Below are positions 1-29,150 of a DNA stretch of 29,344 nucleotides, in pieces (positions within the stretch are counted from its first letter, which is position 1; every line of letters starts with the position of its first letter). Source of the stretch: a virus; the IMG/VR virus record IMGVR_UViG_3300010211_000047, positions 1-29,344 of that record. One strand, given 5' to 3'. The notes beneath the pieces are model-generated. The model was given only the letters and a program-made list of their open reading frames with translations. It did no database searches and was not told the origin of the DNA. A program made the position numbers and the translations under genes.

Positions 1-1386
1 TCACCCTCCGTTCTTAGCCGCCGTCCACGCCTGGATGGCCTCATCGGCCAAGCCGACCCTCTCGCCTCCGGGCCATGGCAAATTGAATTCACGGCGCAAG
101 GCGGCTTGGACGTCGTCAGGGACCAGGCACATCGTCTTTGTCGCCGTCAGTTGCCAGCCTGTGCTGGTGCGGGTGAAACGCTGCACCGGGCCGATAAATG
201 TCTCGGCAAGACATCGGGCCTCGGCGGCGGAGTGGAATTTCTGGAAGGTCCACGCGGTCGGGGCGTCGTCCAGGTCTCCTCGATACAGCGCCAAGCGGCC
301 GGAGTCATCCAGGCTACCACTGTGATAGTACTGTTTGAGATTGGCTTGGGCTGTATTGCGGCGGATGGCGGTCAGACGCTCGCGCGGCCGGCCGGAAATG
401 TGAACGCGCCCGCCGGGACGGCACAGGGCGTTGAGGGTGATCATGACATCCCGCTCGGCGGTGACGCTGTCCACTGAGTTCAGGACCGAATCGCAAATCA
501 CCACATCCCATGGGCCGTGGGCCACCCAATCCCTGAGGGCATGGCGACACCAAGAGTGAGCTGTCTGCCGATCCAGGCGCGTGCCGTCGAGCGGGAAAAA
601 CTCCACCCAACAGACCGGATGACCCTGGTCGACCAGGGCGCGCGCATAATCCGCCTGTCCGGCGCCGAAGTCGATCAGGCGCTCGTCGCGGGTTAGGTGC
701 GGGAGCACGTGGCTTTCATAGAGCTGTGAGCGGCAAACACGCTTGCCATGCTTGCGCAGACGGGGCCGCTGGCAGGCGGATTGACGCCAGGTCTCTCCGT
801 GATCGGGAAAATGAAAAACACCGTAGTCGCGATGTAGCCAGCGCGCGGCATAGTCCGGGACCCGGATGGTGCGACAAGGAATCCCCATCACGGCGCAGGT
901 TAGGGCGTAGTTTATGCCGTCCACCACCCGGCCATCTCGGGTGGCGACGGCACAGCCCCAGGGCCCATACCGGCAGATCAGGTCACCGATGGTGGCTCGC
1001 GTGACGGCGTCCGGACCCCGGAAAGACCCGGCGATTTGGTCAGCCGGGACATCGACGAAAACCCCCATGCGGTCATCCGCCGGCACCGTGGCCCACAAGC
1101 CCGCGACATCTTCTGTGAGGTTGTGGAGCTGATTAAAGCGGACCTCATCCGTGGTCGTGAGTCCGGCTGCGAAGTAGACCGGGCCGAGTGTGCGACCGAG
1201 CGTATTGAGCTGTCGAAGCCGCTGGTGCCCGGCGATGACCGTGCCAGTGTCGCGGGCGATGATCGGTTTGACGACGCCGATGCGGCGGATGGACTGGCGT
1301 AGCGAAGCACAGGCCCGCGCGTCGATGACGCGGGGATTGTAGGGGGCCGGCCGCAACAGGCGAAGGGGATATCTAGCCCTGAACAT
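1..1386 (-). CDS. ParB-N domain fused to SAM-dependent methyltransferase (Mom-position protein)
   Basis: 461 residues, complete: TGA at 3-1, ATG at 1386-1384. Residues 1-65 look like a ParB/Srx N-terminal fold, with PYNPR (15-19), GVVKP (37-41) and AGHQR (52-56) in place of the usual GERR box. A central part (about 70-230) has no domain I can name. Residues 235-345 form a class I SAM-binding Rossmann domain: motif I LIDFGAGQAD (237-246), acidic Glu262 after strand 2, and VVICDSVLNS (295-304) at the motif IV position. That motif IV is not the DPPY/NPPY/NPPF of amino-methylating DNA methyltransferases nor the PC of cytosine-5 enzymes. The gene follows com and a 58-residue gene, overlapping the latter by 14 bases, so it sits where Mu has mom. 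A role in DNA modification is inferred from position and from the fusion; the acceptor is unknown. Partitioning is unlikely because no parA and no ParB helix-turn-helix or dimer domain is present. Confidence 0.85.
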   Translation of the reverse strand: MFRARYPLRLLRPAPYNPRVIDARACASLRQSIRRIGVVKPIIARDTGTVIAGHQRLRQLNTLGRTLGPVYFAAGLTTTDEVRFNQLHNLTEDVAGLWATVPADDRMGVFVDVPADQIAGSFRGPDAVTRATIGDLICRYGPWGCAVATRDGRVVDGINYALTCAVMGIPCRTIRVPDYAARWLHRDYGVFHFPDHGETWRQSACQRPRLRKHGKRVCRSQLYESHVLPHLTRDERLIDFGAGQADYARALVDQGHPVCWVEFFPLDGTRLDRQTAHSWCRHALRDWVAHGPWDVVICDSVLNSVDSVTAERDVMITLNALCRPGGRVHISGRPRERLTAIRRNTAQANLKQYYHSGSLDDSGRLALYRGDLDDAPTAWTFQKFHSAAEARCLAETFIGPVQRFTRTSTGWQLTATKTMCLVPDDVQAALRREFNLPWPGGERVGLADEAIQAWTAAKNGG

Positions 1387-1549
1387 CGAGCACCCCCCTT
1401 ACGAACCCATGCGGAATGCCTTTCTCTTCAATCCAGGCTTCAAGTCTTGCCTGCAGGCGTTCCGCTTCATCGTCGGTCATGGGTACCCGGTATTTACCGA
1501 TGCGCAGCTTGGCAATCGGTGTGCGAGGGGTGCGCTGAGTGTCCGCCAT
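1373..1549 (-). CDS. 58-residue small protein between com and the ParB-methyltransferase gene
   Basis: ATG at 1549-1547, TAG at 1375-1373. The protein starts MADTQRTPRTP and is basic at the N-terminus, with an acidic amphipathic helix in the middle (TDDEAERLQARLEAWIEEK). I do not recognise the family and see no cysteine pairs or membrane segment. It starts six bases after the com stop codon, with GGGAG upstream as a plausible ribosome binding site. Its 3' end overlaps the ParB-methyltransferase start by 14 bases and carries that gene's GGGGGG ribosome binding site. The three genes therefore look translationally linked. It may be a leader or accessory protein of the modification gene; this is inference from spacing only. 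Confidence 0.6.
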   Translation of the reverse strand: MADTQRTPRTPIAKLRIGKYRVPMTDDEAERLQARLEAWIEEKGIPHGFVRGVLDVQG

Positions 1550-1555
1550 CGCGGA

Positions 1556-1741
1556 TTACTCCCTGTCCGGCGCTCCCGGGCGCTCGGGCGGGGGGCTCGG
1601 TGGAGGCGACGGAGTCGCGGCCCTCATGGTGTTGAGTGCCCCGCATCGGGGGCATTTGATGGCGATTAAACCGCCATTGAAGCCTTTGATTTCCGCGAGC
1701 TTTTTGCTGCATTGCACGCAACGGATAGACTCTCCCGTCAT
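1556..1741 (-). CDS. com: Com-like zinc-finger translational regulator (Mu Com family)
   Basis: 61 residues from ATG at 1741-1739. Two CxxC knuckles (Cys8/Cys11 and Cys30/Cys33) flank a short strand-rich segment with the order RCVQCSKKL...IAIKCPRCG. This matches phage Mu Com, which binds a leader RNA and opens the mom translation start. The tail after residue 40 is a Pro/Ser/Ala-rich stretch that is poor in family features. The frame stays open upstream to 1888, but the conserved sequence begins at the chosen Met, and the extra 49 residues would cross strong palindromes, so the long form is unlikely. In Mu, com lies directly upstream of mom; here the neighbours are a 58-residue gene and a ParB-methyltransferase fusion, which makes the latter the likely Com target. 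Identification rests on the double CxxC pattern, its spacing and its position. Confidence 0.85.
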   Translation of the reverse strand: MTGESIRCVQCSKKLAEIKGFNGGLIAIKCPRCGALNTMRAATPSPPPSPPPERPGAPDRE

Positions 1742-22388: not shown

Positions 22389-24074
22389 CTATCCTCCCGT
22401 CATGTAGCCGCGCGGGCCGCCGTCCGACCGCCCCAGATACCCGCCCAACATCCGGCTCACCGCGCGCCGGCCGGCCGAGCGGTGTTCCGGCCGGCCGGCC
22501 CCGCCCATGGCCAGCGACCACAGCATCTCCAGCGCGTCCGGCCCGTCGTCATGGTCGGCGTTCGGGAAGTGGGTGAGCTGTTCGATCAGCGTTGTTTGCG
22601 ATGGATGCAACAGGATCAACCCGCCGGTGACGTAGGGCTGCAGTGCTTCGATCCGCAGCGCCTTGTCCGTATGCGGGGTGACGGCCACCGCCGGCACCGG
22701 ACAGCCTTCCTTGACCGAGCGTTCGATCAGGACTTGCCTCAAAAACTCCTGGAACTGGACGGCCTCGACCGCCCAGCGGACGCATTTATAGGACCGTTGA
22801 AGGGCGATCACGTCGGTGATGATCTTGTCCGGCACCCGCCGCCGGATCTGGGCCTCGACCACCCACAGGCGGCCCGACCCTTCATCCTTGGCGCCCACCA
22901 GCAAGGCGGACGGATCCCGGGACCGGTTGTTCTTTCCAAGCGACGGATCGCAGGCCCCGTAGTACGCCCAGGTCCGGCCGATGGCGGCCCGGTCGGTCCA
23001 ATACTGGACGCTGTCGAAGGTCGCGTCCTCGGCCGTCGGATCGTTCTGATACTCGCTGGAAAACGCCGCCGTGCTGATGCGGGCGCGGATCATCATCAGC
23101 CGGTCGAAGGGCTGCACCTCCGGCCACAGCACCTCGGCGCCGGCCATCATGTCCGCCCGATGCGCGGCCAGGAAGACGGCCGCTGCGTCCTGGCCCTTGT
23201 TGTGCAACACGCCTTCCCACCGGTCCCACAGGTCCATGCGGTCGGGCCAGCGGATCACCGCCTTGAAGTGTGTCGCCCGCCACATGGGGTTCGCCAGCTT
23301 GCGCGACAGCACGCCGTCCACATGCAGCACGGTGCCGACATAGATCAGATCCATGGACCCGTCCGGCGGGCCGATTGGCTCCACGGCCCGGTCCACCCAT
23401 GTCTCGCGCTTGTCGCGTTGCTCGGGGCTGCGGACGTTCTCGTCGTTCTCGATGTCGTCCAGGATAGCCAAGTCCGGCCGCTGGCTGCCGTGCCGTGCAC
23501 CACGGATGCGCTTGCCCGCACCGCCGGCCTGCACCTTGGCGCCGCCGACGGTGACAATCACGCCCACCTGCCACGTCGGCCCCTGGCCCACCGCTTGCGG
23601 GAAGTCGTGCGCCAAGCGCGGGTTGACCTCCAGTTCCGTCTTGATGCCTTCCAGCATCATCGCGGCCACTTCGATCGCGTCCGACAGGATCAGGACGTAC
23701 CGCCGACGCCGGGTCAGGATGCACCACAGGGGAAACAGCTCGGTCCAGAAGGTGGACTTGGCGTTGCCGCGCGGGGCCGCGATCACCTCGCGGGCGCCGC
23801 CGGGGCCATCGGCGATCTCGCCCGCGCGGCGGAAAATCCAGCGGTGGAAGGCCGACGGTTCGGCCCGGCCCCGGTGGGGGAAATACGTCCGGCAGAAGGC
23901 CCCGAAATCGGCGGTCGTTTCGGCACGGCGGGTCTTGGTGGCCGACGGCCGCCGGTCGAAGTCGCCCAGTTCCGACGCCTGGGCGATCTCGTCGCGCAAG
24001 GCTTGCGTGAAATCCCGGATCTCGTCCAGGAACTCGCCGCTGCCATAGCGACCGACGGGGCGGCGACCGGCCAT
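22389..24074 (-). CDS. Terminase large subunit (Mu gp28 type)
   Basis: 561 residues from ATG at 24074, four bases after the small subunit stop. The ATPase domain contains EVIAAPRGNAKST (96-108) as a Walker A and DLAILDDIEN (201-210) as Walker B with the catalytic acidic residues. The nuclease domain begins near 371 with YYGACDPSLGK, giving its first metal-binding Asp, followed by RDPSALLVGAKD and later acidic residues near DHDDGPDALEML (D-GPDAL is typical of the last nuclease motif). It drives headful packaging of phage DNA and, for Mu-like phages, cuts in flanking host DNA. Gene order with the small subunit upstream and portal downstream is canonical. Confidence 0.93.
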   Translation of the reverse strand: MAGRRPVGRYGSGEFLDEIRDFTQALRDEIAQASELGDFDRRPSATKTRRAETTADFGAFCRTYFPHRGRAEPSAFHRWIFRRAGEIADGPGGAREVIAAPRGNAKSTFWTELFPLWCILTRRRRYVLILSDAIEVAAMMLEGIKTELEVNPRLAHDFPQAVGQGPTWQVGVIVTVGGAKVQAGGAGKRIRGARHGSQRPDLAILDDIENDENVRSPEQRDKRETWVDRAVEPIGPPDGSMDLIYVGTVLHVDGVLSRKLANPMWRATHFKAVIRWPDRMDLWDRWEGVLHNKGQDAAAVFLAAHRADMMAGAEVLWPEVQPFDRLMMIRARISTAAFSSEYQNDPTAEDATFDSVQYWTDRAAIGRTWAYYGACDPSLGKNNRSRDPSALLVGAKDEGSGRLWVVEAQIRRRVPDKIITDVIALQRSYKCVRWAVEAVQFQEFLRQVLIERSVKEGCPVPAVAVTPHTDKALRIEALQPYVTGGLILLHPSQTTLIEQLTHFPNADHDDGPDALEMLWSLAMGGAGRPEHRSAGRRAVSRMLGGYLGRSDGGPRGYMTGG

Positions 24075-27174: not shown

Positions 27175-27564
27175 TCAATCCTGGCCGAACAAATCACCCT
27201 GGCGATCAACGCCGGCATTCAGCACCATGCGCACATAGCGTTCGGTCACCCCGAGTTCGCGAGCGATAGCGCGATGCGGCAGGTCCTGTTTCTTCAGGCC
27301 CGCCATGCGCGCCTTAGCGGATCGCGCCATGGCATTGCGCGGAATCGAAATCCGTCCACCGCCCCAGGCGGCGCACAGGTCGGCCCAGACCTGCGGTCCC
27401 AGCACCGCCGCCCAGGGGTGATCGGGGCGCGGCGTGTGGGGCACGTAAATGCCATCCTGCCCCCCCGCCACCTCGGCTAGGCGCAATGCCGCCGCCGGGC
27501 CGATGACCTCGGCGATCTCCATCAGCGTCTTGCAGACGATGGGGGTGGGCGCGGTCTCCGTCAT
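27175..27564 (-). CDS. Mor/C-family transcription activator of late genes
   Basis: 129 residues from ATG at 27564, overlapping the GemA-like stop by four bases (ATGA). A start 51 bases upstream is open but not conserved-looking. An N-terminal helical dimerisation part (LMEIAEVIGPAAALRLAEVA) leads to GGQDGIYVP (34-42), then GGGRISIPR (68-76, the 'GG-x-y/i-x-IP' hallmark of the family), and a C-terminal helix-turn-helix (about 95-116, LPHRAIARELGVTERYVRMV). In Mu, Mor turns on the middle gene C and C turns on late promoters Plys, PI, PP and Pmom. Only one such gene is in this window, and it lies just before the lysis gene, as C does. It should therefore activate the late operons here. Its binding site is likely the dyad at 27086 and 19345. 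Confidence 0.9.
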   Translation of the reverse strand: MTETAPTPIVCKTLMEIAEVIGPAAALRLAEVAGGQDGIYVPHTPRPDHPWAAVLGPQVWADLCAAWGGGRISIPRNAMARSAKARMAGLKKQDLPHRAIARELGVTERYVRMVLNAGVDRQGDLFGQD

Positions 27565-28037
27565 GAGCTTTCCCGCGCCGCCCGGGCCTCGGCCACATCC
27601 AAGCGGCCGATCCATTTCTTAAGGGATTCCACCAAGATCACTAGGTCGTCATCGTCTAGCAGGTCCGGGTCCAGCAACACGTTGGTTCCCGGTTGGAGCT
27701 GGCGCCCGCACCACGACCGCAGAGCTTGGCGCCGCTCGGCGGCCGATTTGGCACGGACGGCCCCACGCCGGCACAGATCGCCCCATTGCGCGTGGACCTT
27801 GCGCGCCAGGGGATTGGTAGCGGGCTTAAACCCGCGCCGCCCTGTGCCCGCGCGCCGCTTGCCGCCGCGCAGCCGGTCGTATTCCGCCAGCACCGCGCCC
27901 AACTGAGCGTCCGACATATCCTTGGTGGACCTCTGCCCCGTCACCCGCTCCATCAGGTCGCGGCGGGCGTCATCGTCCAGGCCCAGGCTCCGGGCGCCGG
28001 CATGAACGGCGCGCATCCGGGCGGCGCGGTCGGTCAT
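27561..28037 (-). CDS. GemA-like regulatory protein (Mu gp16, DUF1018)
   Basis: 158 residues from ATG at 28037, overlapping the next upstream gene's stop by four bases. It has the DUF1018 pattern: an N-terminal 'r-a-l-iH-ga--LGldDd-rR-l---vtG--S-kdms--el' (ARSLGLDDDARRDLMERVTG and the following STKDMSDAQL), a linker with basic residues (RRAGTGRRGFKP), then VHAQWGDLCRRGAV and RQALRSWCGRQLQPG, ending with VILVESLKKWIGRL. Mu GemA/gp16 modulates host gene expression and DNA gyrase-related functions in the early-to-middle phase. Here it directly precedes the late activator, as in many Mu-like phages. Confidence 0.87.
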   Translation of the reverse strand: MTDRAARMRAVHAGARSLGLDDDARRDLMERVTGQRSTKDMSDAQLGAVLAEYDRLRGGKRRAGTGRRGFKPATNPLARKVHAQWGDLCRRGAVRAKSAAERRQALRSWCGRQLQPGTNVLLDPDLLDDDDLVILVESLKKWIGRLDVAEARAARESS

Positions 28038-28291
28038 GTTTCGCGCCTCCCGTCCACGGACACCACATGGGTGATCGTCACGCTGGCGCTGTCGCTCCGG
28101 TGCCGGCATCGCCAAACCAGCCGGATGGACACCCGGCCATCCGCCCGCAGGTAGGGGCGGACGGTGTCCGTCAATTCGAACCCGTCGCCCAGCAGCCCGG
28201 CGTGCAGCGCCGGGCTCAGCCTTTGGGCCAAAGGCAGAGCGTCATGCGGCGGCAGATGCTTGCCGCGCCGAGGCATACGGCGGTGGCTCAT
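28034..28291 (-). CDS. 85-residue protein of unknown function
   Basis: ATG at 28291 overlaps the methyltransferase stop by four bases, and its own stop overlaps the GemA-like start. The product begins MSHRRMPRRGKHLPPHD, has a helix (ALPLAQRLSPALHAGLL) and a strand-rich C-terminal half (FELTDTVRPYLRADGRVSI, then VTITHVVSVDGR). It is basic and has no membrane segment or cysteine cluster. I do not recognise it. The tight overlaps on both sides make it a real gene. A frame open much further upstream lies across the methyltransferase gene and is not used. Confidence 0.68.
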   Translation of the reverse strand: MSHRRMPRRGKHLPPHDALPLAQRLSPALHAGLLGDGFELTDTVRPYLRADGRVSIRLVWRCRHRSDSASVTITHVVSVDGRRET

Positions 28292-28914
28292 CGTGCCGCC
28301 CTCCCGTCTTTCCAGAGGGTATGCATGGCCTCCAGGCCCCGGTGCCCTTGCTCCCACACGAACCAGGCGTGCGCCGTGGGCGCCCCTTCGCCGCGCGCTT
28401 CCGGAGGAATGGTGAACAGCCAGCAATGGGCGCGATTGCCGCACAGCCAGATGCGCGCCGGCGGATGGGCTTCCCACCAAGCCCGGCGGGCATCGGACTC
28501 CCGCCATGCCAAACGCTGAAAGCTCACCACCTTGCGGGCGCCCAAGGCGAGGGCACGGTCTACAAACCGCGTTGCCAAGGAGAACGGCGGGTTCATGAAG
28601 ACAGAGAAGGAGTCGAATAGGGCGCTGTCGGCGGTCAGGAAATCCACCTGGGCGGACTGGCCATCGAAGCCCCAATAATGCAGGTCGGTGGACCACACGG
28701 CGTAGCCCGCCGCGAAGGCCGCCTCGCTAAGGACACCGGTACCGCAACAGGGGTCCCAGACGTCCGGGGTTAGTAGTTCGACGTCCAGGATGGCGCGCGC
28801 CGCCCAGGCCGGCGTCTCGTAGCATTCCGCCGCCCGCGCCTGTGCCTCAAGCGTCGGATACTCCGGGGCCGCGACCGCGCCGGGCAGATGGTCCCACAGG
28901 GCTTGTTGCATCAT
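28288..28914 (-). CDS. N6-adenine-type DNA methyltransferase
   Basis: 208 residues from ATG at 28914 (a second ATG follows directly). It has YETP (32-35), typical of the start of small phage adenine methyltransferases, a SAM motif I DPCCGTG (54-60), Asp77 after strand 2, and NPPF (108-111), the catalytic motif IV of amino-methylating enzymes. The C-terminal part contains WRESDARRAWW and a closing ICGNRAHCW-like segment (residues about 150-165). The protein is short, without a clear target-recognition domain, so its sequence specificity is unknown. It sits in the early/middle block, in contrast to the ParB-methyltransferase in the late block. It probably protects phage DNA or alters host regulation. 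Confidence 0.85.
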   Translation of the reverse strand: MMQQALWDHLPGAVAAPEYPTLEAQARAAECYETPAWAARAILDVELLTPDVWDPCCGTGVLSEAAFAAGYAVWSTDLHYWGFDGQSAQVDFLTADSALFDSFSVFMNPPFSLATRFVDRALALGARKVVSFQRLAWRESDARRAWWEAHPPARIWLCGNRAHCWLFTIPPEARGEGAPTAHAWFVWEQGHRGLEAMHTLWKDGRAAR

Positions 28915-29150
28915 GACGCACCGTCCTGCGGGCACGCCGCCCAATGGTGGCAAGCCGCCGTCCCACCGGGGCAACGGCGCAGGTCGGACAGGGGGCGCCG
29001 GACCATCCCGGCCGCCTTCGCGCAGACGCGCGGGCCCAGAGGCATGCGCGGATCCTGCATCACCCAATGGGCACATTTAGCGCAGATTTTCCCGGACGGC
29101 CCGCCACCCGGGACGTGGGCATACGTGATCGCGCAGGGGGATCGGGACAT
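28911..29150 (-). CDS. Small cysteine-rich (probable zinc-binding) protein
   Basis: 79 residues from ATG at 29150, with AGGAGA eight bases upstream; this start is better than a codon six residues upstream. It contains CAKCAHW (a CxxC pair), VCAKAAG, RCPGGTAACHHW and a terminal cysteine, the Cys arrangement (CxxC-n-C-n-C) of tiny phage zinc-ribbon proteins. It overlaps the methyltransferase start by four bases and so may be expressed with it. Function is unknown. The cysteines suggest one bound zinc ion. Confidence 0.75.
   Translation of the reverse strand: MSRSPCAITYAHVPGGGPSGKICAKCAHWVMQDPRMPLGPRVCAKAAGMVRRPLSDLRRCPGGTAACHHWAACPQDGAS

Follow-up and report, generated by a model that had tools for sequence, protein, structure and literature searches.

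The end of the late region of this prophage raises the question of what a Com translational regulator controls when the gene downstream is not mom, and on which substrate the controlled enzyme acts. The window, i.e. the whole stretch of DNA that was analysed, is an entire virus record of 29,344 bases. It holds a Mu/B3-like transposable prophage that encodes a terminase (22389-24074), a portal protein, a Mu F-like protein, a protease, a capsid protein, a tape measure protein and a late transcriptional activator (27175-27615). In its capsid protein, the prophage shares 49% identity with Chromohalobacter phage YPCBV-1 and 41% with RcapMu. The locus is composed of the following features.

1556-1741, minus strand: com, 61 residues, a double-CxxC zinc-ribbon translational regulator according to Pfam and PHROG profiles
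1569-1585, minus strand: predicted Com-binding site GAGCGCCCGGGAGCGCC, hairpin GCGC[CCGGGA]GCGC, in the 3' end of com
1537-1561, minus strand: start-codon hairpin GAGUaaUCCGC[GAUG]GCGGAcACUC with the start codon of the 58-residue gene in its loop, a candidate translation-inhibition structure
1373-1549, minus strand: 58-residue gene, encoding as a separate protein the C-terminal module of a ParB partner; its product is a predicted small subunit or activator
1-1386, minus strand: ParB-methyltransferase (ParB-MTase) gene, 461 residues, phrog_5475 family
1105-1386, minus strand: MTase domain 1 (residues 1-94), ParB nucleotide-binding fold with the P-motif GHQR
832-1065, minus strand: MTase domain 2 (residues 108-185), predicted second, degenerate ParB/Srx-like fold lacking the P-motif arginine
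127-807, minus strand: MTase domain 3 (residues 194-420), class I SAM MTase with the motifs DFGxG and DSVLNSV

The stop codon of com and the ATG of the 58-residue gene are separated by 6 nt, the 58-residue gene and the MTase gene, which also starts with ATG, overlap by 14 nt, and all three genes lie on the minus strand. This confirmed the tightly linked unit proposed in the preliminary description. The trio lies at the right end of the prophage, the stop codon of the MTase gene coincides with the exact end of the record, and the true prophage end is not visible in the sequence. The same trio was found in the IMG/VR contig L001, where the MTase is 78% identical, and com followed by the 58-residue gene was found in contig L130 (4001-4344), which originates from the same sampled genome as L001 and stops at the stop codon of the 58-residue gene. 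The arrangement is therefore not due to chance. The MTase gene of L130 may sit past the predicted contig boundary.

The com product matched the Pfam family Zn_ribbon_Com (PF10122) with an E value of 1.7e-9, above the gathering score, and phrog_6417, a PHROG translational regulator, with an E value of 1.1e-12. Its cysteines are spaced C8xxC11...C30xxC33, and all four belong to the 13 invariant columns of an alignment with phage Com proteins. Both the profile and the four-cysteine zinc ribbon place the protein in PF10122.

SELEX with the Com protein of a Mu-like phage yielded the binding motif NGAGNNCC(N)2-3GAGNNCCNN, and its site presents CC(N)2-3GAG in a six-base loop that is closed by a C-G pair and lies beside a structure hiding the mom start codon (PMC6483171). 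When both strands of the 29.3 kb were searched for this bipartite motif, a single match with a spacing of 3 was obtained, where 0.14 were expected. The match at 1569-1585 is located 20 nt ahead of the start codon of the 58-residue gene, and the minimum-energy fold at this site is the hexaloop hairpin GCGC[CCGGGA]GCGC with a C-G closing pair. The cognate CC(N)2-3GAG hairpin is thus found just upstream of the gene that would be controlled. No Rfam family matched the window locus with E values up to 1.

For comparison, 80 com loci from IMG/VR, together with those from isolate phages and the window, were reduced to 69 non-redundant loci, the independence of which is incomplete because some are near-identical. 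The hairpin with a perfect 4-bp stem was observed at 60 of 68 com loci and the near-strict motif at 39 of 69, compared to 0.16 in shuffled sequences. At 52 aligned sites, which had been chosen by their CC(N)GAG loop and not by the outer pair, the outer pair alternates between G-C, A-U and G-U. The covariation amounted to 17 two-sided changes (cells), and none of 500 shuffles was as high. As a covarying RNA element, the hairpin RCGC[C-N2-3-GA]GCGY is widespread. It lies within the 3' end of the com coding sequence (e.g. at 1569-1585 in the window, in L127 and in L132), and this location may explain the recurrent PERxGA tail of the Com proteins. L130 also has the hairpin. In L001, the strict motif is absent, with 6 nt separating the two GAG boxes.

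The start-codon hairpin at 1537-1561 adjoins the Com hairpin and has a folding energy of -12.7 kcal/mol, which is weakly better than shuffles (z -1.7). This is suggestive of a start codon of the 58-residue gene that is held shut. Over the com loci, the pairing of the start codon showed a weak excess, slightly above shuffles (mean z 0.46 +- 0.20), and sequestration of the start codon was not adopted as a general rule for com loci.

Taken together, the published SELEX site and the hairpin at the right place support the control by Com that had been proposed earlier, and we consider it very likely that Com binds this RNA and activates the 58-residue gene and the MTase gene. The opposing reading is a mosaic accident, in which Com is idle at the locus and the ParB-MTase pair is ordinary cargo that is expressed independently of it. 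The rarity of the com linkage in the MTase family and the departure of L001 from the strict motif would be compatible with such cargo. However, the single Com site is exactly placed, com is followed by the next gene as closely as at other com loci, and com, the 58-residue gene and the hairpin recur in the second viral contig of the L001 strain (L130), making an idle Com very unlikely.

The slot that follows com was then compared in the 69 viral loci. The first open reading frame encoded an N6_N4_Mtase in 29 cases, a MethyltransfD12 in 21 and a C5 DNA_methylase in 5, so that a recognisable DNA MTase gene is the first gene after com in at least 55 of 69 loci of other phages. In isolate phages, Dam-type, N6/N4-type or true Mom genes were found in this slot, exemplified by a D3112-like phage in which the gene behind com matched Mom (PF25680) with an E value of 4e-73. 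Neither the 461-residue nor the 58-residue protein of the window matched PF25680 with E values up to 1, and a Mom homologue was rejected. In the P2-like phages Mana (Burkholderia phage, L024) and AP3, com and a DNA MTase gene are located between tail genes, showing that com is not restricted to transposable phages. Judged from these gene orders, Com is a general leader of DNA-modification genes, and this favours DNA as the substrate in the window. The earlier proposal of a modification gene in a Com-controlled slot is in line with this survey.

An ABC-ATPase/GNAT fusion (phrog_11143) was observed behind com in 6 of the 69 loci (L021:3155-5030; also L128, L156, L159 and L203). In Komp_PAO1_1, a formyltransferase-like gene comes next, and the arrangement may be a further modification cassette under the control of com.

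The locus resembles com/mom of phage Mu in the Com zinc ribbon, the RNA hairpin beside a structured start codon, the position at the end of the late region and the modification gene downstream (PMC6483171), but the genes behind com encode a 58-residue helper and a SAM-dependent ParB-MTase, whereas that of Mu encodes the acyltransferase-like Mom. It shares the slot, the hairpin and the com gene immediately upstream with the com-led DNA MTases of Mu-like and P2-like phages (Dam/D12, N6_N4 and C5 types; B3 ORF47-48, TJ1, Mana). These are canonical enzymes encoded by single genes, whereas the class I MTase of the window is atypical, contains ParB domains and has a small partner.

Homologues of the MTase were found in phage-plasmids of E. 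coli and Salmonella (47-49 kb), in Bacteroides, Brochothrix and Gordonia phages and in many viral contigs. In loci without com, the two genes are located between ParB-type genes and the terminase gene, with portal genes nearby. A passage in PMC6536676, citing earlier work, describes this ParB-Tls (ParB-TerL) locus as a home of DNA-modification genes, and it has been suggested there that ParB guides the modification during packaging. The homologues thus occupy the ParB-TerL locus, whereas the pair of the window has moved to the right end, about 21 kb away from the terminase gene, and its partner has lost the ParB domain. The com gene next to a ParB-MTase gene was observed in one group only, consisting of the window and L001, with com and the 58-residue gene of L130 at the end of the contig. 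The preliminary description had asked how often com lies within two genes upstream of the homologues. It does so in the window and L001, but as a rule they occupy the ParB-terminase locus and have no com. By this comparison, the com linkage is therefore a local recruitment in this prophage group and not a rule of the family.

Several other arrangements were seen among the homologues. Contigs L102, L110 and L111 (Chloroflexota) carry tandem arrays of two or three ParB-MTase genes, and the partner is largely or entirely missing upstream of the individual copies. A stop codon between the ParB part and the remaining parts splits the homologue in L005 (5908-7392) and in L068. In L053 (16225) and L078 (8080), a Com-like zinc ribbon is encoded about 7 kb downstream of the ParB-MTase gene, in another context and with no sign of the GAG hairpin.

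Directly upstream of the MTase homologues, a ParB protein of about 200 residues is encoded that carries a short C-terminal module with the consensus LxFGxxKIPxTxxE...GFVxxLL. A profile HMM of this partner was built without the window and L001 and searched against 11,787 open reading frames. It matched the 58-residue protein of the window with an E value of 2e-8 and its counterpart in L001 with 4e-9. The alignment of the 58-residue protein covers positions 150-195 of the 198 model positions only, which implies that the 58-residue gene is a partner gene reduced to the part that encodes the C-terminal module. The module was also matched in L130 as well as in L001, and in the window prophage and L001 the module is all that is left of the partner. 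With tblastn, nothing convincing was found for the 58-residue protein in phages, the relation being visible with the partner HMM only. The preliminary description had given the 58-residue gene no role of its own, and this has to be corrected. The gene is no bystander, as its product is, by profile comparison, the C-terminal module of the partner protein of the family.

The partner or its module is encoded immediately upstream in 58 of 68 homologues and within 800 bp in 6 more, where the 68 are the non-redundant MTase members with upstream sequence, including the window and L001. The two genes mostly overlap by a few nucleotides. We therefore think it likely, from this gene pairing, that the 58-residue protein and the MTase form a two-subunit enzyme. 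The retention of the module suggests that it may be an essential subunit. The ParB domain of the partner matched ParB-MTase fusions of type II in their ParB part with an E value of 4.5e-37. A search with PADLOC yielded only this ParB part of type II MTases, and membership in a defence system was rejected.

The MTase protein matched phrog_5475, a PHROG of unknown function, over residues 3-455 with an E value of 1.7e-88, and this full-length match, together with the partner module upstream, places it in the phrog_5475 ParB-MTase family. The Pfam matches were Methyltransf_23 (E 3.2e-8) and ParB_N (E 5e-5, just under the gathering score). A structure model built from 70 aligned relatives reached a pLDDT of 92 and a pTM of 0.90. 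Domain 1 matched the CTP-bound ParB structure 7bnr with a Z score of 13.7 and an rmsd of 1.8 over 92 residues, and its GHQR motif, including Arg56, is conserved in 70 of 70 family members. Domain 1 thus has a ParB fold with the P-motif arginine.

The fold search with the whole protein was dominated by the MTase domain, and the middle segment was therefore modelled and searched alone. The model of residues 108-185 had a pLDDT of 92.5 and the best match was ParB 7bnk with a Z score of 7.5. Nearly all leading neighbours were of the ParB, Noc, Srx, SerK or SbnI type, whereas unrelated folds had Z scores of 2.4 or less. Comparison with the ParB profile of the partner by hhalign gave 85%. The position of the P-motif arginine is taken by Y160 (69 of 70) and A161 (61 of 70). 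According to the model, residues 108-185 are a second, degenerate ParB/Srx fold. The structure prediction thus returned the expected ParB and SAM MTase folds, and the middle segment that had been left unexplained is accounted for by this second fold.

Domain 3 matched 5ufm, 3sm3, METTL6 and Trm9 with Z scores of about 14, and E. coli CmoM was also among the closest folds. The residues D239, G241 and G243 of motif I (DFGxG) are present in all 70 members, and V301, N303, S304, W379, Q382 and E433 are invariant as well. Profile, motif and fold all assign the domain to the class I MTases of the UbiG/Methyltransf_23 type. A canonical amino-DNA (N6A/N4C) MTase was rejected, as motif IV reads ICDSVLNSV with N303 and S304 in 70 of 70 members and N6_N4_Mtase and D12 were not matched. 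The motifs GHQR and ICDSVLNS are present as described earlier (70 of 70 for GHQR and for the N and S of VLNS), and motif, profile and fold bear out that the enzyme is not a DPPY-type MTase.

In its fold, the MTase domain most resembles small-molecule and tRNA MTases (UbiG-like, Trm9, METTL6, CmoM), not DNA MTases. This raises the possibility that tRNA or another RNA is modified, as by Trm9 or CmoM, which would tune late translation or evade RNA-targeting defences. The closest folds include METTL6, Trm9-Trm112 and E. coli CmoM, and a small obligate partner would fit a role of the 58-residue protein like that of Trm112. However, UbiG-like folds serve many substrates, so that the rank of a fold is weak evidence, and the ParB and terminase neighbourhood as well as the com linkage point to DNA. 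Trm112, the partner of Trm9, binds zinc, but the 58-residue protein contains no cysteine. We regard RNA as quite an unlikely substrate.

The same difference from DNA MTases, and the terminase and portal genes adjoining the homologues, would be consistent with an enzyme that acts during packaging and methylates a protein, e.g. the terminase, the capsid or a host restriction factor, with the ParB domains docking it on DNA-protein complexes. This is unlikely, since at least 55 of the 69 loci compared have a DNA MTase gene behind com, and the gene of the window has moved from the neighbourhood of the terminase (22389-24074) to the mom slot. By guilt-by-association, DNA is the probable substrate of the MTase, although the target may instead be a protein, an RNA or a small molecule. 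On balance, we lean slightly towards reading the whole trio as a late, Com-switched two-gene modification cassette in the mom slot that acts on phage DNA.

In the proposed mechanism, the mRNA would fold such that a hairpin encloses the start codon of the 58-residue gene. Com produced late in infection would bind the CC(N)2-3GAG hexaloop and open the start-codon hairpin. Translation of the 58-residue gene would carry into the overlapping MTase gene, so that both proteins are made together, and the 58-residue protein would associate with the MTase as its obligate partner, in the role of a small subunit or an activator. ParB domain 1, with its P-motif arginine kept, would bind a nucleotide and load the enzyme on DNA, and domain 2, lacking this arginine, may have a structural role or contact DNA. 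The class I domain would then methylate the phage DNA, at a base or at a group already on the base, before packaging and thereby protect it from restriction. The Com switch is directly supported by the nucleotide sequence, and the comparative data strongly favour the pairing of the 58-residue protein with the MTase. A bolder reading, which we hold to be rather doubtful, goes further: a ParB-gated two-subunit UbiG-like enzyme, for which the 58-residue module alone suffices as partner, would write a Com-switched late DNA modification outside N6A, N4C and C5. If true, an undescribed DNA mark would be written by this enzyme family in many phages, in phage-plasmids and in the Chloroflexota arrays.

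In a 2025 PNAS survey, ParB-Methyltransf_23 fusions were enriched in phages with no function assigned, and a bacterial ParB-SAM-MTase fusion was found to bind ATP (PMC12704722). The protein of the window belongs to this family (phrog_5475), has the same fusion and has kept the P-motif arginine. Of the candidate novel operon, the com-led arrangement stands, but the fusion itself is an already reported phage architecture. Unlike the fusions merely listed in the survey, that of the window adds a second ParB-like fold, a two-gene partnership and control by Com. The window sets a fusion that is common in phages under a regulator that otherwise leads DNA-modification genes, and it identifies the partner of the fusion, shrunk there to a module of 58 residues. 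An annotation problem thereby becomes testable by a small reconstitution of three short genes and one RNA hairpin, and the Com hairpin can be used as a marker for finding further modification genes.

Near the early end of the window (28288-29076, minus strand), a second product, with no Pfam domain, matched phrog_799, a phage DNA methyltransferase family, with an E value of 2e-41.
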